The notes beneath the pieces were generated by a model. That model was not told where the DNA came from. It searched no databases and saw nothing but the letters and a program-made list of their open reading frames with translations. A DNA stretch of 60,601 nt, taken from positions 1 to 60,601 of IMG/VR virus record IMGVR_UViG_3300030012_003336; one strand, given 5' to 3'. Every line of letters begins with the position of its first letter. Position 1 is the first letter of the stretch. Below are positions 10,546 through 49,725 of this stretch, piece by piece. The translations under genes and the position numbers were made by a program. The DNA is from a virus.

Positions 10546-11746
<1,201 letters not shown>

Positions 11747-11769
<23 letters not shown>

Positions 11770-12046
11770 TTACGATTTCGTTCGGTTGGTTTTTAGTAGG
11801 AGTATTCGACAACTTGTAGAGGTCGTTCAGTGCGTCCCGGTAACCCGCATACCAAGCATGACGCATTGCATTACTTTCTGCATCTTGCAAAGTATTGTAC
11901 GACGGTCCAGCTAATTCTTTGAGGGTAGCCGCCGCTTTACGGAAAGTCTCGCTCGCCAATAAAGCTCTAAGCTCTTCAACAGTTTTTACATCCCGATACC
12001 AAGTATCAAGAGGGACCGGGGGCGTAATTGGTTTTTGTTTAGCCAT
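11747..12046 (-). CDS. Small helical protein upstream of the scaffold
   Basis: A 99-residue protein starting MAKQKPITPPVPLDTWYRDV, with a helical middle (VEELRALLASETFRKAAATL) and a Tyr/Ala-rich helix (RHAWYAGYRDALNDLY). Its start overlaps the methyltransferase stop (TAATG) and its end overlaps the scaffold start by 23 bases. No family was recognised. Tight coupling to the scaffold suggests a head assembly role, but this is not shown by the sequence. Confidence 0.65.
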
Positions 12047-12957
12047 TAGTTATGTAGTTCGCGTAGTAAATCGGAAAAAGCTTTGGCAACAACAGCAGGG
12101 ACACAACCATTACCCAGCATTCTCAGTCGGTCGGTGCGGTTCGCCACCGGGCACACAATTGTGTCCACCCAACCAGGGGGAGGCCCATCAACTGCTCCAC
12201 CCAATTCGGATTCAATCTCCCCGTTTCCCGATCCGGAATCCCGGTCCCGGTTTCCTGCAACCCGTGGGTGCTCCCACTCATGCTGGTCCTCTTCAGGTAA
12301 ACTAGGCCACCGTAGTTGTGGACTTCCCTCCCTAAAAGACAGTTTGACGGGACATTCCGACAACTCCCCGCCGTCCCGTCCTTCCAATCCCGACTCGTCG
12401 GCGTGGGCCAAGATGAAGACTCTTTTCCGCTGGTGGGGGCCCCCAACTTCGCTCGCCGTAAACATTCCGAACGAACATCGGTAATCTTCTCGCTCCAACT
12501 CTCGGAGGACATGCAACAATACCGGCGTCCCAGCCGGGTCTCCCCAGTGGTCTCCTTTGAGTTCGCTCGTAATGATTCCTTCGACGTTCTCGAGGAACAC
12601 GTAGCGAGGTCGAATAACTCTAATTGCATTCTTTATGTAGGGGAAGAGGTGCCGTCCGTCTGAATCCGCGTTCCGGCGTCCGGGGACAGAGAACGGGGTG
12701 CATGGGAAACCTCCGCTGATAATCTCAATGCCTTTTGGAAAGCATTCCAATGGCAGGGTTTTAATGTCCGTCCACAAAGGTGCCGGATCCAAGTAGCCCG
12801 CTTCCATCTTACTAACCAGGTTTGCGATGGCGAAGGCTTCGACCTCCACGTAAGCGAGTGTTCTGCAATTCGGGAGAACTCTTCGGAGTCCGAGGTCGAT
12901 TCCTCCATACCCAGTGCAGAGCGATAAGTGTCTAATAGTTCCTCGGGCAAAATCCAC
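12046..12957 (-). CDS. DNA (cytosine-5) methyltransferase
   Basis: A 303-residue protein with the ordered C5 methyltransferase motifs: I at about residues 11-20 (LSLCTGYGGI, the SAM site), IV with the nucleophile Cys86 (GGFPCTPFS), VI (ENVEG, 123-127), VIII (QRKRVFILA, about 176-184) and X (RMLGNGCVPA, from about 279). The target recognition segment between VIII and X is short, about 90 residues. The start is GTG; no in-frame ATG precedes it before a stop. It sits inside the late head operon with no endonuclease beside it, so it looks like an orphan that modifies phage DNA, perhaps against host restriction. Target sequence is unknown. Confidence 0.92.
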   Translation of the reverse strand: MDFARGTIRHLSLCTGYGGIDLGLRRVLPNCRTLAYVEVEAFAIANLVSKMEAGYLDPAPLWTDIKTLPLECFPKGIEIISGGFPCTPFSVPGRRNADSDGRHLFPYIKNAIRVIRPRYVFLENVEGIITSELKGDHWGDPAGTPVLLHVLRELEREDYRCSFGMFTASEVGGPHQRKRVFILAHADESGLEGRDGGELSECPVKLSFREGSPQLRWPSLPEEDQHEWEHPRVAGNRDRDSGSGNGEIESELGGAVDGPPPGWVDTIVCPVANRTDRLRMLGNGCVPAVVAKAFSDLLRELHN

Positions 12958-25605: not shown

Positions 25606-28600
25606 TTACTGGTCAATCTCTATAAACCTTGGATCCTGCATTGCAGCTTCCGACAGCGTCCTAAGCCTAGCTTCTCCATTAGGAGTCTGCATTAGATCTC
25701 GTCTCAAGGGTAACGATGGCAGGTATCTTTCTTGAAACCCCTGCCCTGTGAACAATAGCTGTGATCTGGTCTCGCCATACTTTGCTTTCCGCATGGCTCG
25801 ATACATCTCGCCCTCAGACATAAAGGATCCGAACCCACGTATGGCGGTCCTCAGTGCGGAATTGATTTCCAGCATCCGTTCTTTTGTGTCCTTGTAGAGA
25901 TTCACGATTTCTCTATCGGACATTGCTTCGTCCTGTCTTAGCCTATTATACATCCGCCTTGCCCGGCTGTATTCATCCCGGAGGGCGTAGAGGGTTCTTT
26001 CAAACTGTCTCTTAGGATCAACCGGGCGGGATGTAACTGGCATTGCTTCTTGGAATATAAGCCCCATAGGCGAATCTAAGAAGTGCGACTCACCTCCTTC
26101 GACAGCCGTGCGATATGCCTCCATAACTTTCTTAGGAGTTCTTCCCCCGTAGGCTTCCCGTAGAATGTAGCCTAGAGACTTACCAATCTTGCTGTTAAAG
26201 TCTTCAGACTCTTCGTAAATCGGCGCGTCGTTTGAGGCTTGCCTGTTTTCTAAGACATCAAATACAGCTCCCGATAGTATCTGTTGCCCTAAGAATGGGG
26301 CGAACACTCCAGTCATCACGGCCTTCTGCATACCTTCAACTGGCTCTCCTCGGAACAAGTGCTCCATGAATCGGAGCGAGGGATCCGCGATCATGCTAAA
26401 CGGATTCATGTAAGTCAGGTCAAGAGATCTTAGCTGATCTGATCCTGGTCGCTTGAAGTAGAAGAACGTGTGGTTTCTCAGGTAGACGGGAAGAGATGCT
26501 CGTATTGCTTCGTCTTCGTCTTTACCGATCCCGCCGACTACTGCTCTCAGCAATGTAGGAAGGACCATGCTTACTAGACCCACGGTCCCTATAAATCCTG
26601 TTATTCTCTTCCTCCCCCGTGCCCGGATGACCGGGTTATCCGACTTCATTTCCTTCCGCGCGAGACGAATTGTATTCGCGGTGATGCGGGGGATCTCTGC
26701 GGTGAATCGAATGAACGGAGCAAACAGCAATCCAAAATTAGTCTCCGTAGTTATTTTCTTAATAATCGGAAGAGCCCGATCATAGGATTGCGCGGTAGCA
26801 CTTACGATGTCGGCAGCGTCCTGCTCTATCTGAGTATCAGAGGGCGGCGGGTTCTCTTTGTTGAACTTGCCTGTTTTTATATCGTGTGCGCGTGCTTCAA
26901 GCAGGACTTTCTTTTCATGCTCGAAGTAAGCAATCTTGTAGAAAGAATCCATTGCCGATGCGATCCGCCCGAGGTTATCTCTGATTTGTCGTAAAGCGGA
27001 CCCCGTTACGTTAGGGTTCTTGGCCTGCTCCGATAGCTCACTCAGTTTAGCTTGCAAGCTGTTCATGGATTCCTCTCCGCGCATCAGGCGGATCATAATC
27101 TGAGAACGAATCTCGTTGCCGAATACTCCAGTAGCTTCGAGCCGAGATAGGTAAGCGTCCGTATCTCTTACGCTGCCACTGCCGATAGCTCGTCTGAACA
27201 TATCGCCTGCCCCATACTTGCCTCCGATCTTGAGCAATCTAAAGGATCCATAGAATCCTTGGGCGGGACCAAAGAACATAATGTTCGACAGTGCGTTACG
27301 CAGATAGAATCCGAAAGACAGTAGGGTCTTAGCCCCCATTGAATAGCCCGTGAACTTATGCGCGTAACCCATGATGTTGTTCAGGGTCTGCGAGGTGGCG
27401 TCACTCCCTGTCCGGGAGATGGGCTGCATGAGAACTTTGAGTTCTTCTATGATGTCTTCTTTTGCGTAAAGACCTGCAAGGGGGTTGTTACCCATGTCGG
27501 CCTTATCGCTCTTCACTCTTCTATACTTACTGCCTTCGGCAAAGTTATCTTCTTTAAGATCTTCGACTTGTTTCGCGGTGAGCAACCATCCCCCCGCTTG
27601 ACCTTGTGCCTTCAGCTTCTGAAGAAATGACTGGTGCGCGGCGATACGGCTCACCATACCCAACGAGTAAACGAGGTCGTTGACGCTATCTTCTTTGATG
27701 TTGTTTGCCCCCATCAAGTTAGCCAGTGCCTCGGGTAGCTCTCTTCTTTTCTTCAGGTTATCTACAAGAGCTTTGAGACCATCTGATGTACCCTCGATCC
27801 GGATTGCGGAACCCTCTGCCAGGTCAAAGGCATCCGCGAAGTCTCGAGCTGAGTTCGCGCTGCCATAAGCATCGAGGAACTCAATCATCATCTGGTGCCC
27901 TTTGCTAGCGCCCCCGACTTCAGCTTCATCATACAACTGCTTGGCTTGCTGCTCGGCTTCCGAAACAGTGGCTCCCTCTGTGATCAGCCTTTGAGTTTCT
28001 TGAGAGATAAAGACATCCCGCATGAACTGGATTGCAGCCTGTCGTATATTGACGGCCTCCGCTGAATCCGAAGTCTTGATCATCTCAATGTAATCCGGAT
28101 TCATAAACATCTGGTAAGTCCGCGTGATGTAGACCCCCATCTGGTTATCAAACCTCAAATCAACTCCGTCTCCCCCGAACAAAACCTTTGCGGAGGCGGA
28201 CATCTTATCTGTTAAATTACGAAGGTTAAGCACTACGGTGTACACCGATCTGTGCGTATCCTTTAGATATTGTAGTCCTTCATTTCTCTCGGCTTTCGCT
28301 TTCTCTCGAGCTTGCACTCTGAGGTCTTGCATCCCCTCCGCTTGTCGAGTCCTGAGAGCTTCGCGTTGAGTCTCGGCTTCAGCATCATCTATAATGCCTT
28401 GGTCTCTGTTAATTGTTATGACCGCTCTCGCTTGAGCGATGCTATCTTCTAACTCTTTGACACGAGCTTCGTCCGGGACGACGGTTCTGGAACCAGTGGC
28501 CTGTTGCAGCATAGTCCAGAACTTATCGTCAGACGGGGGCACGTTGTCCCCGAACTCTTCTTTCATCGCCTCTTTGTAGCTCTGATAGAAGCGGCCAATC

Positions 28601-31600
28601 AGATTGTCGTTAGCCTTGATAAAGTTATCACGCTCACGCAAGAACCTGACCACCGTAGGATCCGCTGTCCTTACAAATAACTTCGAGAACAGGCTCTTCG
28701 ATTTTTCATACGCGGCGTCTGTTTTAGCAATGACAGGGATCTCTAAGAGTTCCATGTGATTGAAGTCGATCAGGTCGTCATCTACATCCAAGGACTCAGG
28801 AAAATCTGAGGCCCGTTCAGTCTGTGCGTTGATTCCAAGGCCGCTAGCCGCTCTTGCCGGGGCGGTTTGATCTTCTTCTGGTTGTGGGGCGTCTATGCCT
28901 GCGGATAATCGACCGTTGATATCAAGTTGCCGCATGAACTCTTCTATCGTGGCCGCAGGATTTTCTGGGTCGAACTGCAATACGCGGGACTTATAGACAT
29001 AACCGGTTTGTAACGCTCTAAGCTGTATCCTAGTCCGTTCGATAGCCGTTCTCACTTTTGGAGACAGGTTCTTCATGTTCCTCTCAAACTTCTTACGCCT
29101 AAAGTGGCCCTTGAGATACCGCATCAAAATGTCTTTGTTACTCGGATTCCGGGACAGGAATTCTGCTTGCTCTTCAGTTGTGAATCCCATCCGGGACCGT
29201 TGCCCGAACATCCGAAGCATCTCCTCGGCTATAGTGAGTCTGGCATCCGGATCTCCTTCAAGGAACCGGGCTTTCAGATCCTCTCGGATTGAATCTTGGT
29301 TGCCGTATTGCGCTAAGACTTCATTAACATCTGACAAGCTTAACGCGGACGCAATAGCCTCTATCTCACTTTTAGATAAAGCCGCCACGGATGCTGCGTG
29401 GGAAATCTCTTCGTCGATTACAATCTCAACTATTTCTCGAACGGGGACTGGTTCGCCACCGTTCTTTTGTACAAGCGACTGCAAGTACTCAAGGATCTTG
29501 TCCGGGTTGATCGTCATTACGCCGGTCTCTTGATCGACTTCCGCCATCCCGTCGATAGTTTCGTCCACCTGCACTTCAATATCGGGAGGAACAATACGCC
29601 TTACGAGATCCGCATACTCTTGCTTGCGCCGTTCATGTTCTTGCGTTGCAGTTCTTTCGGTTCCCGTTGCTCCTTCCAAACCAGAGGCTAACCCCACTGA
29701 GGACCGACGATCCGAAGAAACTTTTTCGGCAGCATTGGTTGCCAGCGAACTGGAAGTAAGGGGGACTGCCAAGCTTGGTTGTGAGGTCGTGGCCTTAGTC
29801 TTGAAGACCCTGTCCGCAATATACTTCTTTGCCCTTGGTGGAATTACTTTTGTCGCCGTCATTCCATCTCTTTGCAAACTAGCGAAGTCTTGCGTAGACA
29901 TTGCCGCAGCTCGTCGTGGCTTAGGGAGCCCTGCAAACACCGAAGTGTGCGCGAGGTCTAGGACTGCGGAAAATGCTTTCCTGAACTTAGGGTATTGTGC
30001 TCGAGCAAGGTTAGGGAAGAGCCCCAAGATTGCGTCGATGATCACTTCAAACACGTTGCGCTTACGGACACCAACTGCTCGAGAGGGGTCAGATAGAACT
30101 TTGACGGCCTGTTGAAACTTGATGTTTGTCAGAAAGTGCGCGATAAACTCGTCAACATTCTCTAGAGCTTCATACATTCTAGAGTCGTGGTTATCATATC
30201 CCGTGCTGACAAATGTCGCACCTCCAAAGCCCCCCATTGACTGATTGGAAAACTGTTCTCTGACTTGATTTATAACATTGTCGAGGACTGCCAAAGCGGA
30301 ACGCTCGCGTCTAGTCAGTTCTGCCTTGGGTTTCCTTGTTATGTTCGAGACATAAGCATGAGTCACTTCGTGTAAAAGTGTGTCCGCCACACCTCTAGGG
30401 TTTCTACCGTTGATGTTGATCGATATTGCCCGAGTCCCGTCGTCTTGAATACGCATACGTCCCGCGTAGTCCAAGTTTGTTTGATCGATTGTAAACGACA
30501 AGTCTGTCAAGAAGCTGGGGTTCTGAATGAGCAACCTTGCCAAGACAACTAGATGCTGGTCGTATTCAGACTCTGCTTCTGAAGACGATTCGATAATTCG
30601 CCGTAGCGCCTCGAGGATGCTGTCCGGGTTGTTGTTTTCTAAACCGAGCGCCAATATCTCTTCGAGGTTAGCTTCCTGTATCTCCTCGAGACTAAAGTCC
30701 GCGTTCTCTGATCTCAGGTATAGGTCAGACTTTGCTTTTTCAATCGACGCAATGAATGCGTTTATCTCTGGAGGGGTCGGAGTTCTCCCCAGTAGTTGCT
30801 GCAAGCTAACTTCAAAGGTTTGCCGGTATCCGGAATCCTGCATCGGGTCTCCTTCAACAGACTTCGCTGACAGGGACAATATGTTTAGGGCCTTACGAAC
30901 AGGGGCCCCCATCTCAAACAAGTCTGTCTTCAGGGCCTGCTGGAAATCTAAGCTAACAACATTAGATTGATTGTTGCCTTGTGCCATCCAGTTAGTGAAG
31001 AGCCCCCAAGCTTCTTTGTTTGTCATCTTTGAAAAGTTAATCGACGACGACTGATAAACTTCTTGCTCGAGGATATTAAGAACAGCCGCGCGGATTTCTG
31101 GGTCTGCCGCCATTGCTTCAATAGCTTGGTCTTGGGCATCCTTGATCGTTGAAGCAATCTTACGTGTAGGTAGTTGCTCCGCAGGTAGCACGGGGAACGG
31201 CTGATACGGATCTGATATTTCCTGTTCAGGTGAGAAGTTTTCGTTCTGCTCGAGTGCGGGGACGGCATCTACAGGAATGGTCGCAATATACGACTGCTTC
31301 AGATGCTCTGAACGGGCATCTTGCATCTTCGTATACTCTTGCGTTATCTCACGACCTAGGGATATCAGCGATGGCTCTTGCCCCCGCATCAACGCATTCA
31401 TTGCCCTTAGTTGCAAATCGAGAAGGGCTGTTTGCTGGACAGTAGGAGTCAAGCTTTCGGGGATAAATCTGCGGAGATTTTCTTCATTGGAGACAAGATC
31501 AAGTGCCTCCTCGATTGTGATCTCTCTGTCTTCACTGTTAGTTCGATCAAGGTCGAACGGATCTCGTATTAAGGTAGTGGCTTCTAATTCCTCGGGAGTC

Positions 31601-34600
31601 GGGGTGGCGAACCTCGACTCGTCTTCTGGATCAATGTCAGAAAGAGATCGAGCCTGTCTAAGCTCGGCCACTTGCTCGATTAGACCTTGGAGCATGGAGT
31701 AGTCTTCGCGGAGCGTAAGAACTTTGTCGGAAGGCGTGAGGGCGGAGACTTGTCCTCCGGACTCTGATAGAACTATATCCGACACAACGAATTGATCTCC
31801 AATCTGAGCAAACCTAAACGACGGGTTTGTTGTCGTAGCATTGATTACGGATTCCGGAACCCGGATTGGGGTTCCTTGCTCCATCAACGCAGCCATGCTT
31901 TGTGGGTCGTTGTTGAAAATGCCTACTTGGTCGGGGCCTACTTTTGCTTTTACATCAGTAAGCGTAGTCACCGCGTAGCCACCTTCGGGAGTTTTGACAT
32001 CCGTCACAGGAAACCTTCTAGAAGTTTCTCTTTGGATCTTGGCGTTGCTATCTTCAATAAACTTCTTTGACAAAGTCCTTTCTGAAACCGGCACCCCAAG
32101 CCTGGCTAACTTAGCTGGAGTGAGAACATACGGGAACCCTGTTGCAATAAGCCGATCCACGGCAGCATCTTCTTCCGGATCAACTTCTTCATTCGACTCA
32201 ACGGTGCGAGTCACGCGCAGGGCATTTAGAGATTCGTTTCTCTCTCGGAACGCTTGACGTTTTTGAGCAAGTCCATCCTCGGGACTGAGTGTTCCGGCTT
32301 CCTCTTCTCTTTTTACCTCGTTTACTTTGTCGGTAAAAGTCTGCTCTATCTGTTCCGCTTGCTCAGACTTCTCGGGGTCTTGCTCTAGTCTAGTCGAAGG
32401 TTCTGCTTCAGAATAAACTATGCCTTCTAACCCTGCGGCGGTGTCTCTAAACGCTTGGTGGTCTGATCCTTCGACCGCACTGTTTTGTACAGGATCTGCC
32501 CCCAGACCACTAGCAAGCCCCCGCTTTCTAGCCAATACTCGGGGACTAACGGTCTCAGAATCAACTGTTGCACTTGAGGTGACGGCAGCTAAGGCGGACC
32601 TAATAGACTTGGGACTAGCTTCGTCCTTTAGATTTAACTCGAGTTGCTCCCGAGGCGGAGCCGCTGCTTGCTCTTTGTTGGTAAACAACGCAGGAATTTC
32701 CAATACGGTCCCACCCTCGGCGGCTCTATTCGCAATATAGATATTAACTTCGTCCCCGTGCTGCCGAACTTGTTGTTCGGTCATTCCTGATTGTTGCATT
32801 GCATAGTTCAAAAAAGCATCAAAGTTTTTTGATCTATTCTTGCTACTACGGCGGACGATATATGCGGCCTTATCTAGCAAACTTGCGAATCTAACTTCTC
32901 GTTGTAGCCCATTGTGAACCGGCTTGGGAGCTGCTTTTGCGAGCTTACTTTCTACGTCGGCTAATTGAGGGATGGCACCCCTTTGAGGGGCCGGTGCTTT
33001 ACTCGGGGTCTCCGGCACAGACTCCGCATTCACTTCAGGCGCTACAGGAGAAGTCGTGTCCTCCGGAGTAGGAGTAACTGTCGGCACGGGCTCTGATAAA
33101 TTTTCAGCGGACTGTTCGACGGGCGTTGCCGTGTCACTTACAGGAAGAGGAGGAGGAGTAGCTGCGCGAGTCGTGTTGGCTTGACCAATAGCCTCGTCCA
33201 CTCGAGCGTCTCTCTTTGTGTCGTCGAACCGTGTAGGATCCCCTATGGCCTCTCTAAGAGCCTTAGCGGCTTCTTTGCTATTGCTAGCCTCAAGCCTAGC
33301 CACAGCGCCTGCGATTATAGAATCCTGTGCGGACATCTTAGAGTCCTGAAAATTTCGACCCCCTATAAGTTTCTTACCGGCTCGAATTGCTGGGACGGCT
33401 CCACCTAATGCACCCCCCATCAGTGCCGCCATATACCCCTGCTTTAGTTGTTGTTCTATAGGAGTATTCTCATTTAAGGCGGCATCTGCAAACAGCCCTG
33501 TGACCAGCTCATCGATGCCCTCTTCGAGCGCCTCTGATCCGGCGGGGATACCTAATGTCACCACTGGTCTGAATATCCCTTTTACTTTTGCCGGTAGCCC
33601 CACAGACCTCTTTAGATTTTCTTTCAGCTCTGCCTCAAGCAAGTCTGCGAACTTCACTTGTTGACCGGTCGTAGTTTTAAACGTCCTGTCTCCTAGTTGT
33701 CTAGCTTTGCTAATTAGAAAATCTCCGGCTTCATTTAACTGCTTATAAGTAAGCCCCCTACCAAGAACACTTTCAAAACCACCAAAGCCTATACGAGAAA
33801 ACGATGCGGTTAATATACCTGTAAATGCTGCGGCTTGTATACTTGCCCCTAAGGCTTTGTCGTGAGCCTCTTCTCTTGTAACTCCTTCGTCGATCAATTG
33901 CCCGTATACCTGGCCATAGGTGGCTGACCCTGACCGCGTTCCGGCCGTTGCAATTAAGGGCAGCGTGGAAGGACCAATTGCATCAGCCATAACCCGACCT
34001 ATGTGTTTCTTATTGAAGTCGTCTAAGAACCCAGTCAACTGAGATGCCGCTTTGTCTGGGTCGGACACCATGATTAGCTTTTTAGTGAGGCTATCGCTGG
34101 CCTCATCAATACCGTCTTTAGTGACTGTTTTGACGCCGGTCCTTGTTTTGGTGCCCACTAGGCCCGCCTTTAAAAGCTCGTCCGCAAGAGTCCTGCTATC
34201 TTTGGTGCGTCCTACGGCTACCGTTTTAAACGTATTGCCTACAGCCGCTTTACCAAACCCGGACAATGTAAATTTTGCTCCGGACTTAGCGGCGGATCTA
34301 GCCGCAAACAAAGCTACGCCCGCTCCCGCCCCGGCACCTCCTGAAACAGACGTTATCAAAGCAGTCGCTGCAACATCCCCCACCATCGGAAGTGCTGTTT
34401 CTCCCAGCTCAGAGAAAAATCCATACTCGTCACCAAACATACCCGCAACTCTCCTGCGTTTAGCCCGCTCCGCAGCCATGCCTGAAAAGTATTCGGCCGC
34501 AGCTTCTTTATCAAATAGACCTCCTATTGCCATAGGAAGAGCAGCAATCGTATCAAGTGCGGCAAAACCTAATCCTAAAGCCCTGTTTGCAAACTGACTA

Positions 34601-36066
34601 TAATTGTCGTTATCGGCTAAGTAGTCTTCTAATATTTGATAGTCTTCCAACCCCGCTTGTTTCCCCGCAGCTAAGGCACTAGACCACTCACCAGACTTGT
34701 AAGTGGTCAGAAGAAAATCACTACTATCTTGAAAGCCTGCTTTTAAGCGTTCGATTCTTTGTTCGTTTAGTAAGACTTTAGCTTCAGAACTTAGATCTTT
34801 TCTATCCGCAAGAGCTTTCTCAAAGAGATCTTTTTTAAACGCCAGTTTAGATGGTACATACGGCAGACCGAACCCCCCTTTGCGTATATTCTTAGCTAAG
34901 TCCTCATCATCATCATGGAATCTGTAAAAGCCCTGCTCAGTTCCAAACTCGAGTAACGATTGTTTTAAAGCTGGTAATATGTCTGTTGGGTTGAACCCAA
35001 GCTTGTCCGCATATTCGTCAGCTAAATCGTCAATGTTTGTATTTTTTGCCCTGTCTACGGCCTGTAACCGTTTTTCGGCATCGCTAACTTCGTACTCATC
35101 AAATTCTTCTCCAAGTGCCTCTCGTATTTTTTTTATAGGGGCCGTGATAGCAAAAGGATTTTCCCCGTGATATACAGAGTGAACATATTTTTTAACTTTT
35201 CTATATATCCCTGAAGAAAACTTCAAGGCTTTGTCCCCAAATCCCATCTCCTCTTTGTCCCCTTCTCGGCGCGTTATACCTTCCGCAATAATCCGAAACT
35301 CTTCATTTTGACGCAGTTCATCATCTATTGCTTGTTTGGCCTCGATGACTTTAAGAACCTTATACAACGGCATATCATAATGCTCGGGGTTCTGACGGAG
35401 CTGCTGTAATTTTAAAGCGTCACGCATGGTGACCCCAGTCATGGCTCCTTGTTTAAGAGCATCAACAGGGTTCATTGTTTCAACAGAATCCCCGACGTAT
35501 AACTCTCCGGAAGAAAGTTTTGCGACAGCCATTTCTCCCGAATCGACTTTCCGTTCTAAGAGACTGTCGTAATTTCCTCCCCCTATACCACTAAACATTA
35601 TCGACGATACCTCATCCCGCAGGTTAGCTACCGTTGTGTTAAGGTAGTCTTCTGTAGGATTAGCTACCTCGGTAGCTGCAATATAATTAGTAAGTGTTTT
35701 CCAATCTTCAGATCTAGAATCAAGAGAGTCTCTGTAAAACTTTACTTGGTCATCAAAGGATCCGCGTGAGTCGTAGCTACCAGCTAGGACATCAATTTCT
35801 TCTGCGTTCGATCCATCAGGCAAAAGAATCCCATCATTGATTAGCGACTGGGTGTAGCCCTCAAAAATCTGGGATTCTATCTCACCGTTATAGGCGTTGT
35901 TAGCAACGTGCTCTTCTCGAAGGTAATCTGAATATCGAACCCTACTCTCGAGTTGATCTTCAAAGGTGTTTTCCTGAGTCCATTCCGAATATGGTTTCGG
36001 TTGTACTAATTCTGCCAGCCCTTCGGCGGCTTCAACGCGGTTAAGAAAATCAAGAGTCTCAGACAT
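25606..36066 (-). CDS. Giant polyvalent internal virion protein with metallopeptidase motif
   Basis: A 3,486-residue protein, ATG 36066. Visible parts: a charged N-terminus; hydrophobic patches near residues 500-600 (ALGLGFAALDTIAALPMAIG); Pro/Ser/Thr-rich linkers near 1000-1200 and 2080-2150; a zinc-peptidase-like HEVTHAYV at about 1896, with a downstream MYEALENVDEFIAHFL that can supply the third ligand; and a C-terminal third containing MSMVLPTLLRAVVGG-type membrane-like helices and LDLTYMNPFSMIADP, similar to large polyvalent-protein domains (LPD38 type). Large internal proteins of this kind are ejected with DNA and cross the host envelope. It is the last gene of the terminase operon. The phrase LASGLG, LASGLE or AASGLG recurs at about residues 1181, 2123 and 2405. 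Confidence 0.85.
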   Translation of the reverse strand: MSETLDFLNRVEAAEGLAELVQPKPYSEWTQENTFEDQLESRVRYSDYLREEHVANNAYNGEIESQIFEGYTQSLINDGILLPDGSNAEEIDVLAGSYDSRGSFDDQVKFYRDSLDSRSEDWKTLTNYIAATEVANPTEDYLNTTVANLRDEVSSIMFSGIGGGNYDSLLERKVDSGEMAVAKLSSGELYVGDSVETMNPVDALKQGAMTGVTMRDALKLQQLRQNPEHYDMPLYKVLKVIEAKQAIDDELRQNEEFRIIAEGITRREGDKEEMGFGDKALKFSSGIYRKVKKYVHSVYHGENPFAITAPIKKIREALGEEFDEYEVSDAEKRLQAVDRAKNTNIDDLADEYADKLGFNPTDILPALKQSLLEFGTEQGFYRFHDDDEDLAKNIRKGGFGLPYVPSKLAFKKDLFEKALADRKDLSSEAKVLLNEQRIERLKAGFQDSSDFLLTTYKSGEWSSALAAGKQAGLEDYQILEDYLADNDNYSQFANRALGLGFAALDTIAALPMAIGGLFDKEAAAEYFSGMAAERAKRRRVAGMFGDEYGFFSELGETALPMVGDVAATALITSVSGGAGAGAGVALFAARSAAKSGAKFTLSGFGKAAVGNTFKTVAVGRTKDSRTLADELLKAGLVGTKTRTGVKTVTKDGIDEASDSLTKKLIMVSDPDKAASQLTGFLDDFNKKHIGRVMADAIGPSTLPLIATAGTRSGSATYGQVYGQLIDEGVTREEAHDKALGASIQAAAFTGILTASFSRIGFGGFESVLGRGLTYKQLNEAGDFLISKARQLGDRTFKTTTGQQVKFADLLEAELKENLKRSVGLPAKVKGIFRPVVTLGIPAGSEALEEGIDELVTGLFADAALNENTPIEQQLKQGYMAALMGGALGGAVPAIRAGKKLIGGRNFQDSKMSAQDSIIAGAVARLEASNSKEAAKALREAIGDPTRFDDTKRDARVDEAIGQANTTRAATPPPLPVSDTATPVEQSAENLSEPVPTVTPTPEDTTSPVAPEVNAESVPETPSKAPAPQRGAIPQLADVESKLAKAAPKPVHNGLQREVRFASLLDKAAYIVRRSSKNRSKNFDAFLNYAMQQSGMTEQQVRQHGDEVNIYIANRAAEGGTVLEIPALFTNKEQAAAPPREQLELNLKDEASPKSIRSALAAVTSSATVDSETVSPRVLARKRGLASGLGADPVQNSAVEGSDHQAFRDTAAGLEGIVYSEAEPSTRLEQDPEKSEQAEQIEQTFTDKVNEVKREEEAGTLSPEDGLAQKRQAFRERNESLNALRVTRTVESNEEVDPEEDAAVDRLIATGFPYVLTPAKLARLGVPVSERTLSKKFIEDSNAKIQRETSRRFPVTDVKTPEGGYAVTTLTDVKAKVGPDQVGIFNNDPQSMAALMEQGTPIRVPESVINATTTNPSFRFAQIGDQFVVSDIVLSESGGQVSALTPSDKVLTLREDYSMLQGLIEQVAELRQARSLSDIDPEDESRFATPTPEELEATTLIRDPFDLDRTNSEDREITIEEALDLVSNEENLRRFIPESLTPTVQQTALLDLQLRAMNALMRGQEPSLISLGREITQEYTKMQDARSEHLKQSYIATIPVDAVPALEQNENFSPEQEISDPYQPFPVLPAEQLPTRKIASTIKDAQDQAIEAMAADPEIRAAVLNILEQEVYQSSSINFSKMTNKEAWGLFTNWMAQGNNQSNVVSLDFQQALKTDLFEMGAPVRKALNILSLSAKSVEGDPMQDSGYRQTFEVSLQQLLGRTPTPPEINAFIASIEKAKSDLYLRSENADFSLEEIQEANLEEILALGLENNNPDSILEALRRIIESSSEAESEYDQHLVVLARLLIQNPSFLTDLSFTIDQTNLDYAGRMRIQDDGTRAISININGRNPRGVADTLLHEVTHAYVSNITRKPKAELTRRERSALAVLDNVINQVREQFSNQSMGGFGGATFVSTGYDNHDSRMYEALENVDEFIAHFLTNIKFQQAVKVLSDPSRAVGVRKRNVFEVIIDAILGLFPNLARAQYPKFRKAFSAVLDLAHTSVFAGLPKPRRAAAMSTQDFASLQRDGMTATKVIPPRAKKYIADRVFKTKATTSQPSLAVPLTSSSLATNAAEKVSSDRRSSVGLASGLEGATGTERTATQEHERRKQEYADLVRRIVPPDIEVQVDETIDGMAEVDQETGVMTINPDKILEYLQSLVQKNGGEPVPVREIVEIVIDEEISHAASVAALSKSEIEAIASALSLSDVNEVLAQYGNQDSIREDLKARFLEGDPDARLTIAEEMLRMFGQRSRMGFTTEEQAEFLSRNPSNKDILMRYLKGHFRRKKFERNMKNLSPKVRTAIERTRIQLRALQTGYVYKSRVLQFDPENPAATIEEFMRQLDINGRLSAGIDAPQPEEDQTAPARAASGLGINAQTERASDFPESLDVDDDLIDFNHMELLEIPVIAKTDAAYEKSKSLFSKLFVRTADPTVVRFLRERDNFIKANDNLIGRFYQSYKEAMKEEFGDNVPPSDDKFWTMLQQATGSRTVVPDEARVKELEDSIAQARAVITINRDQGIIDDAEAETQREALRTRQAEGMQDLRVQAREKAKAERNEGLQYLKDTHRSVYTVVLNLRNLTDKMSASAKVLFGGDGVDLRFDNQMGVYITRTYQMFMNPDYIEMIKTSDSAEAVNIRQAAIQFMRDVFISQETQRLITEGATVSEAEQQAKQLYDEAEVGGASKGHQMMIEFLDAYGSANSARDFADAFDLAEGSAIRIEGTSDGLKALVDNLKKRRELPEALANLMGANNIKEDSVNDLVYSLGMVSRIAAHQSFLQKLKAQGQAGGWLLTAKQVEDLKEDNFAEGSKYRRVKSDKADMGNNPLAGLYAKEDIIEELKVLMQPISRTGSDATSQTLNNIMGYAHKFTGYSMGAKTLLSFGFYLRNALSNIMFFGPAQGFYGSFRLLKIGGKYGAGDMFRRAIGSGSVRDTDAYLSRLEATGVFGNEIRSQIMIRLMRGEESMNSLQAKLSELSEQAKNPNVTGSALRQIRDNLGRIASAMDSFYKIAYFEHEKKVLLEARAHDIKTGKFNKENPPPSDTQIEQDAADIVSATAQSYDRALPIIKKITTETNFGLLFAPFIRFTAEIPRITANTIRLARKEMKSDNPVIRARGRKRITGFIGTVGLVSMVLPTLLRAVVGGIGKDEDEAIRASLPVYLRNHTFFYFKRPGSDQLRSLDLTYMNPFSMIADPSLRFMEHLFRGEPVEGMQKAVMTGVFAPFLGQQILSGAVFDVLENRQASNDAPIYEESEDFNSKIGKSLGYILREAYGGRTPKKVMEAYRTAVEGGESHFLDSPMGLIFQEAMPVTSRPVDPKRQFERTLYALRDEYSRARRMYNRLRQDEAMSDREIVNLYKDTKERMLEINSALRTAIRGFGSFMSEGEMYRAMRKAKYGETRSQLLFTGQGFQERYLPSLPLRRDLMQTPNGEARLRTLSEAAMQDPRFIEIDQ

Positions 36067-49015: not shown

Positions 49016-49417
49016 TTATCTAGTTGCTTTTATAAATGCTCTTCTTTCAGCCTTGGTATACTTAGCCCGTTGTTTTCCAGCCCGGGTCGCTTTTCTTTTA
49101 GCTCTGTTACCTGCTGCTCGCTGTGACTTAGTTAACATCTTGCGAGCTTTTCTTGGCAAATAACGCTCGCCCGTTTCTGATGATTTTTTACCGGAACTGG
49201 TTCCCCAATCTTGTTTAGACCACTTGCGTAATTTATTTCCGGATTTTCTTTTACCTTTATAACGACCCCCTCTTTTCTTGTAAATTTTAGTCGCGAGCTG
49301 CATTGCTCGAGCAGAATGCTTCCCTCCCATTCTTCGTTTAGCTTCAGCTTTAGCTTGAGCCCAAAGTTTTGGATTGGACTTAGTCGCAGTCCCTGAAGTT
49401 TTCTTTTTTCTACTCAT
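49016..49417 (-). CDS. Highly basic DUF5872-like protein
   Basis: A 133-residue protein with about a third Lys/Arg. The core matches DUF5872 layout: NPKLWAQAKAEAKRRMGG, KHSARAMQLATKIYKKRGGR, WSKQDWGTSSGKKS and RYLPRKARKMLTKSQR. The family occurs in algal giant viruses and phages; function is not established. Its ATG overlaps the stop of the metallopeptidase-like gene by four bases. A packaged, DNA-binding virion protein is inferred from charge and late position. Confidence 0.75.
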   Translation of the reverse strand: MSRKKKTSGTATKSNPKLWAQAKAEAKRRMGGKHSARAMQLATKIYKKRGGRYKGKRKSGNKLRKWSKQDWGTSSGKKSSETGERYLPRKARKMLTKSQRAAGNRAKRKATRAGKQRAKYTKAERRAFIKATR

Positions 49418-49725
49418 GCTTTAAATCGCTTACAAAATCTTTCCCAAGGTCCAAAAAATAATTCTTCCAAACATACTACTACAGATTCTTCGGCGAATGT
49501 GTCTAGACGATCTAAACCGGAAAAAGCAAAGCAAGCGTGCAGCATTTCATGCCTTACAGTCGCTTTGACCTCTGCTGGTTTTAAATTAGAATCTACGACA
49601 ATAGTTTTTCGTTCGTGTGAGTAATACCCAAAATATCCCTTTGAACGGCCGTTCTCATCGCTCAAATCTTCCCGGACTATCTTAACAGGAACTCCTGCTA
49701 TATGGACTGATTTGGGGAGAGTCAT
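49414..49725 (-). CDS. Small zinc metallopeptidase-like protein
   Basis: A 103-residue protein with HEMLH (His59, Glu60, His63) and a downstream acidic FAEESV that may give the third zinc ligand. The strand before it (KTIVVDSNLKPAEVKATV) is as in minimal SprT/ImmA-type peptidases. It lies in the late operon between the amidase and basic proteins, with four-base overlaps on both sides. It may process virion proteins or aid lysis; substrate unknown. Confidence 0.75.
   Translation of the reverse strand: MTLPKSVHIAGVPVKIVREDLSDENGRSKGYFGYYSHERKTIVVDSNLKPAEVKATVRHEMLHACFAFSGLDRLDTFAEESVVVCLEELFFGPWERFCKRFKA

Follow-up and report, generated by a model that had tools for sequence, protein, structure and literature searches.

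A recurrent clade-specific motif at the module borders of a giant polyvalent phage protein: candidate processing sites and a candidate zincin

The giant open reading frame of the window (the whole stretch of DNA analysed, a 60,601-base IMG/VR record of an uncultured marine virus that infects bacteria) is reasonably likely to encode a polyvalent ejection-type cassette protein in which motifs in the linkers serve as processing sites, with the protein's own zincin domain as the leading candidate enzyme. The reading frame is real, as the original prediction had claimed, occupying 25606-36066 on the minus strand and running for 3486 codons from ATG to stop. The sequences themselves show the motif, its recurrence, its clade-specific forms and its place in linkers, the gain of a motif along with a cassette, and the conserved zincin, whereas packaging and injection, cleavage, the enzyme and the scissile bond are inferred. 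In this reading the protein consists of constant parts (an N-terminal core or N-core, the zincin region, a module of about 280 aa and a C-terminal core or C-core), and cargo modules are added after the 280-aa module and ahead of the C-core. The linker at every module border is disordered and carries six residues that serve for recognition, L-x-S-[G or R]-hydrophobic-[G/T]; proteolysis at this motif, either before packaging or after injection, would free the modules. The enzyme would most likely be a zincin, the protein's own domain being the first candidate, and the cut is predicted to fall before the hydrophobic residue at motif position 5. Zincins usually prefer a hydrophobic residue at P1', which the conserved hydrophobic position 5 fits. 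That such zincins process polyvalent proteins is a prediction of Iyer et al. 2017 (PMC5512222). Against processing, the N4 virion RNA polymerase (vRNAP), which has a homologous zincin, is packaged unprocessed (PMC5512222), and PhiM1 gp48 has been modelled as an ejectosome subunit within the particle (PMC11440229). As N4 vRNAP is packaged whole, cutting may come after injection. The features of the window giant are:

25606..36066, minus strand: giant polyvalent virion-type protein, 3486 aa, ATG to stop
32587..36066, minus strand: N-terminal core and long linker, residues 1-1160 (alignment A6, 13 sequences; kept in both clades)
32500..32517, minus strand: site 1, LASGLG, residues 1184-1189 (pLDDT <50, model 105-174)
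29797..31149, minus strand: zincin-containing region, residues 1640-2090 (alignment A1; PDB and PHROG matches)
30358..30372, minus strand: HEVTH zinc-binding motif, residues 1899-1903 (conserved in 18 relatives)
29674..29691, minus strand: site 2, LASGLE, residues 2126-2131 (low pLDDT, model 452-499; doubtful copy)
28885..29673, minus strand: module of about 280 aa between sites 2 and 3 (constant length, conserved in both clades)
28834..28851, minus strand: site 3, the last site, AASGLG, residues 2406-2411 (disordered model tail 744-795)
25609..28767, minus strand: C-terminal core, residues 2434-3486 (alignment A5, 15 sequences)

The giant gene adjoins a terminase gene (PHROG 2), and a family A DNA polymerase is encoded further along the window (Pfam scan). 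Megablast and tblastn searches of cultured phages with the giant, the terminase and the portal gave no match, and a host search of bacterial genomes returned only scattered contigs of metagenome bins from organisms unlike one another. What bears on virion carriage and injection of the window giant is its adjacency to the terminase together with homology to ejection proteins. Pfam and PHROG scans of the whole giant found no clear domain, and the zincin is the sole domain recognised in it, several unrelated effector domains being found in the chains of its relatives. Neither the N-core nor the C-core had a relative in the PDB by sequence profile; the C-core has distant matches in cultured phages, annotated as virion structural protein. 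In Pseudoalteromonas phage Y3 (L198, OR779980.1) the C-core lies in a separate gene, which might have been taken as support for its being a polypeptide in its own right. In that record, however, one sequence is found both at the end of the 3421-aa gene and at the start of the gene that follows, through either duplication or faulty assembly, and it was left unused on account of this suspect repeat at the gene boundary. The module of about 280 aa is folded (pLDDT about 80 in the AlphaFold model), and each of the 13 members compared has [DN]EExxH without variation, a sequence that differs from HEXXH by the lack of a single histidine. It was considered as a second, degenerate zincin, an identity that is not claimed because profile comparison with the zincin showed no relation and no PDB relative was found. 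Comparison of the giant with that of its nearest relative (L001) shows strong mosaicism, the middle parts being nearly identical and the N-core and other stretches far more diverged. Elsewhere on the minus strand of the window, 12046-12957 resembles a C5 cytosine DNA methyltransferase (GGFPCTPFS, recognised by eye only), and 10546-11769, upstream of a capsid-like gene, encodes a long Glu-Pro repeat, possibly a scaffold.

The metallopeptidase motif HEVTHAYV was confirmed, starting at residue 1899 (it had been placed at about 1896). In the alignment of 18 relatives (A1) H260, E261 and H264 are invariant and E334 is nearly so, and the candidate for the third ligand is the Glu of NVDEF at about residue 1973, so that the window giant has the HEXXH plus downstream Glu that is a feature of the polyvalent-type metallopeptidase (MPTase). 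A profile of the region matched 9sfn_G (an internal virion protein, E 1.4e-10) and 8vb2_A (PhiM1 gp48, E 1.7e-8) in the PDB. Foldseek of the model against the PDB gave no match below E 0.001; the structural match to PhiM1 came from VIA-align, in which the PhiM1 tetrameric ejection protein (TEP, 8vb2_A) was the top row (Z 9.5, 155 residues, rmsd 3.2) and the further fold matches were SPRTN and lethal-factor zincins. PHROG 2206 (N4 vRNAP) was matched at its MPTase part by 14 of 18 members, the matches being confined to profile positions 2102-2250, and Pfam and PHROG scans of both the whole protein and the zincin region found no T7-like RNA polymerase domain. As the homologs of the zincin are ejection proteins, a virion role is supported, the support being one of homology. 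The domain of PhiM1 described as endolysin-like in PMC11440229 (8vb2 chain A, residues 268-528) is probably itself a zincin, because it aligns with the window zincin and holds HEAAHA. Members of one subclade (L026/L118 and L030/L127) have RSFLH or RSFAH in place of HEXXH and are likely pseudoenzymes; in L118 and L127 the HE of the zincin is lost and LYSGF is kept at the last site, which speaks against the protein's own zincin as the enzyme.

All three predicted copies of the short repeat are present in the window giant, LASGLG at 1184, LASGLE at 2126 and AASGLG at 2406, within 1-3 residues of the positions first given. AlphaFold models, which cover residues 1640-2434 and 1050-1560, place all three at pLDDT <50 between folded parts, bearing out their location in linkers; none lies within a folded domain. 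ASGL alone occurs three times against about 0.15 expected by composition (an expectation computed on the near-identical L001 protein). When all 4-mers are considered, four words occur at least three times in the window giant compared with 2.85 in shuffles (maximum 9), and one 6-mer is repeated (GLASGL) compared with 0.4 in shuffles. The repeat in the window sequence alone is thus at chance level once all words are counted, and it is comparison with the relatives that raises it far above chance.

A terminase search of viral contigs gave 506 relatives, in nearly all of which the giant gene lies downstream of the terminase where the contig is long enough. Full-length giants were taken from 30 related records and compared along with that of L001. 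In the window's clade the giants have 3258-5402 aa and lie directly downstream of the terminase; their ends are constant, and they differ in length through the cargo that follows the 280-aa module and precedes the C-core. Among 14 giants of this clade there are 69 copies of [LIVA]xSG[LIV][GTFQ], where shuffles give 4, and among nine giants of a sister group there are 25 copies of L[QE][ST]RxG, where shuffles give 0.2, although these ratios overstate significance because the patterns were defined on the same proteins and the proteins are related. Independent of the choice of pattern are the mutual exclusion of the two forms, neither group carrying the G or R form of the other, and a search for repeated words made with no prior motif, which found LQSRYG four times in one protein of the sister clade. 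Other members of that clade have LESRFG or LQSRIG, and L156/L157 have the form LETRFG. The frame that all these forms share is L-x-S-[G or R]-hydrophobic-[G or T]. In other genes only one match to the motif was found in 38,872 aa. The original proposal is thus supported in part: a short motif is real, lies in linkers, is conserved in homologs, where a single protein may have as many as about seven copies, and is found at the borders of modules, contrary to the refuting case named beforehand (unconserved motifs within folded domains). The cutting of the chain, and the own zincin as the enzyme that does it, stand as proposals, and the repeat is wider than ASGL itself.

Within single proteins the six motif residues are 69% identical between copies (a value biased upward because the sites were picked by pattern), compared with 8.5% for 24 flanking residues and 6.5% for random pairs. 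The flanks are disorder-prone (median disorder-propensity rank 0.87). Both TCN and AGY codons are used for the motif serine, and this switching indicates that selection acts on the protein. The number of motifs rises with protein length (rho 0.81, r 0.91, relatedness uncorrected). Some giants (L116, L121 and L122) have an intact zincin and show no clear motif sites, which counts against the processing reading. In two members of subclades that lack the motif (L109/L111) the word VFNPDATP is repeated, partly within conserved cores, and [KR][FY]S motifs were not in excess when first counted in freshwater relatives.

Of the three near-copies in the window, sites 1 and 3 stand, lying in linkers where relatives have the motif, and site 2 is doubtful. 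In the region of site 1 the relatives carry L[PAG]SGI[TN] about 45 residues upstream and nothing at the place of the window's copy, with the exception of L098/L130, which have LMSGLG there. The window and L098 lack the upstream copy (LPSGIT or similar elsewhere) and have one some 45 residues downstream in its stead, a shift that looks like the turnover of a functional short motif. The position of site 3 is occupied in relatives by LGSGLG, IHSGIT, LESGIT, IFSGVF, LRSGIT, LQSRYG, LESRFG or LYSGFG. Site 2 probably does not belong with the true copies, since its homologue in the sister clade stays LASSIG-like and does not change to the QSR (R) form that the other sites there take.

The cargo in the relatives comprises GNAT, ART-PolyVal, methyltransferase, DUF7178 and 2H-type phosphodiesterase domains (Pfam; L105 and others), the ART-PolyVal match being above its curated cut-off, and these domains fall between motif sites. 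Two pairs of close relatives differ by single cassettes. L100 and L101 are 96-100% identical in each 100-aa block save for one extra cassette of about 275 aa in L101, which brings with it one extra SGIT motif. L106 and L107 (97% identical) likewise differ by one cassette and one motif, and this cassette lies directly before the C-core and is 77% identical to that of L100/L101. The DUF7178 module has SGIT motifs around it in L099, L101 and L103 and QSR motifs in L114 and L119. Between clades, then, the form of the motif goes with the protein that receives the cargo rather than with the cargo itself, and this points to a recogniser belonging to the recipient.

The main rival to processing sites sees in the motif a tag for docking or packaging, by which each linker would bind a repeated virion receptor (the inner face of the capsid, scaffold, portal or ejectosome ring) and nothing would be cut. 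Encapsulin cargo peptides, which bind an HK97-fold shell, provide a model for such a tag. Several copies per chain, a disordered context and a hydrophobic-small-hydrophobic pattern would fit one binding partner equally, a clade-wide change of all copies at once suits one partner as well as one protease, and the relatives that bear the zincin belong to ejectosomes. For packaging, however, one or two tags would be enough, whereas here every added cassette brings a border copy and motif number tracks protein length, and we consider a docking tag rather unlikely. It is also unlikely that the sites are cut in trans, whether by a host protease after injection or by another phage peptidase, for which the window offers a 103-aa SprT-like metallopeptidase with HEMLHA (49414-49725, minus strand) adjoining the endolysin. 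This small zincin is encoded in 17 of 18 related genomes, and giants with a dead zincin retain one site, both of which agree with cutting in trans; against this, the small zincin occurs with or without the motif and does not track its form, the window copy being 84% identical to that of G019 (a genome without the repeated motif) but about 48-52% identical to those of same-clade genomes.

Two further readings dispense with function. In the first, module shuffling left the motif behind as a recombination seam or duplicated linker, functionless itself. The movement of cassettes together with their 3' motif within one clade would agree with this, but the reading is already disfavoured and scarcely credible given that the flanks of different copies show no homology (8.5% vs 6.5%), that codons differ between copies, that the same cargo bears the other motif form in the other clade and that the site has shifted by about 45 residues in the window lineage. 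It is very improbable, too, that the three ASGL copies in the window itself are due to chance: the number of repeated 4-mers does not exceed that in shuffles and site 2 behaves unlike the other sites, as chance would allow, but sites 1 and 3 sit in the very linkers where the relatives have the motif.

Similar repeats were found in other polyvalent proteins. The last site is often preceded by an ART-PolyVal tail (IPLSxRF...), and this tail is also found in unrelated viral contigs, where it ends in DIRFS (61 exact matches). In 48 non-redundant ORFs of that set, after the selected tails were masked, [DEGNQS][IV][RK][FY]S occurred in 28 further copies against 2.6 in shuffles, while scrambled patterns gave 1 and 0 copies on the same ORFs; it should be noted that these ORFs were chosen for having one such tail and that some copies may be ART-tail repeats outside the mask. 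Repeats of the [IV][RK][FY]S type are often protein-specific, as with DIRFSR, DIRFSL and DIRYST (L205-L265, e.g. L215, L265, L207, L241 and L227). This suggests that module-border linker motifs may be widespread among polyvalent proteins. FSLGRTP is repeated after ART-like tails in giants of other viruses that came from the zincin search (L180 (L232) and L187). A tentative generalization, which we hold to be possible but somewhat less than probable, is that polyvalent proteins in general carry a lineage-specific processing code of border motifs, read by their own co-evolving zincin, which would let cassettes join by recombination and later be released singly. The lineage forms in such a code might be LASGI[TG], LQSR[YFW]GA, LETRFGA, DIRFSR, DIRFSL and DIRYST.

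With a polyvalent protein a phage delivers many effectors as a single chain, and built-in processing by the zincin has so far been an idea without known cut sites. If the processing reading is right, the motif supplies candidate cut sites and makes this idea, which has been difficult to test, testable for these phage weapon proteins. It would also give a rule for dividing giant phage proteins of unknown function into modules, an aid to effector discovery, and would show how cargo can be swapped between phages with no change of processing enzyme.

Neither this class of protein nor processing by a zincin as an idea is new, autoprocessing of polyvalent proteins by the MPTase having been proposed by Iyer et al. 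2017 (PMC5512222). A recurrent module-border motif with clade-specific forms was not found in the literature searched (most subscription journals lying outside its scope). The phage-type polyvalent proteins of PMC5512222 are likewise very large multidomain chains with a zincin MPTase having HEXXH and a downstream Glu, and with ART-PolyVal and other effector modules (present here in the window's relatives); they differ in that here a clade-specific motif marks the borders and the window giant itself shows only the zincin and unknown modules. N4 vRNAP (PHROG 2206) is alike in size (about 3400-3500 aa) and in its homologous zincin, but no RNA polymerase domain was matched in the window giant, and N4 vRNAP is packaged unprocessed (PMC5512222). 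The PhiM1 tetrameric ejection protein gp48 (8vb2) and 9sfn share a homologous zincin by profile and fold, but have 1263-1337 aa. DdrB of phage P1 is a zincin-bearing virion protein reported to be processed (PMC5512222), although no cleavage site or repeated motif is described for it there. A parallel for the use of several short sites is provided by the prohead-protease substrates of SPN3US (PMC10052503, PMC5694885), internal head proteins in which a single phage protease cuts at a short motif that occurs more than once; there the motif is a different one and a dedicated prohead protease removes propeptides, whereas here the motif borders enzymatic modules.
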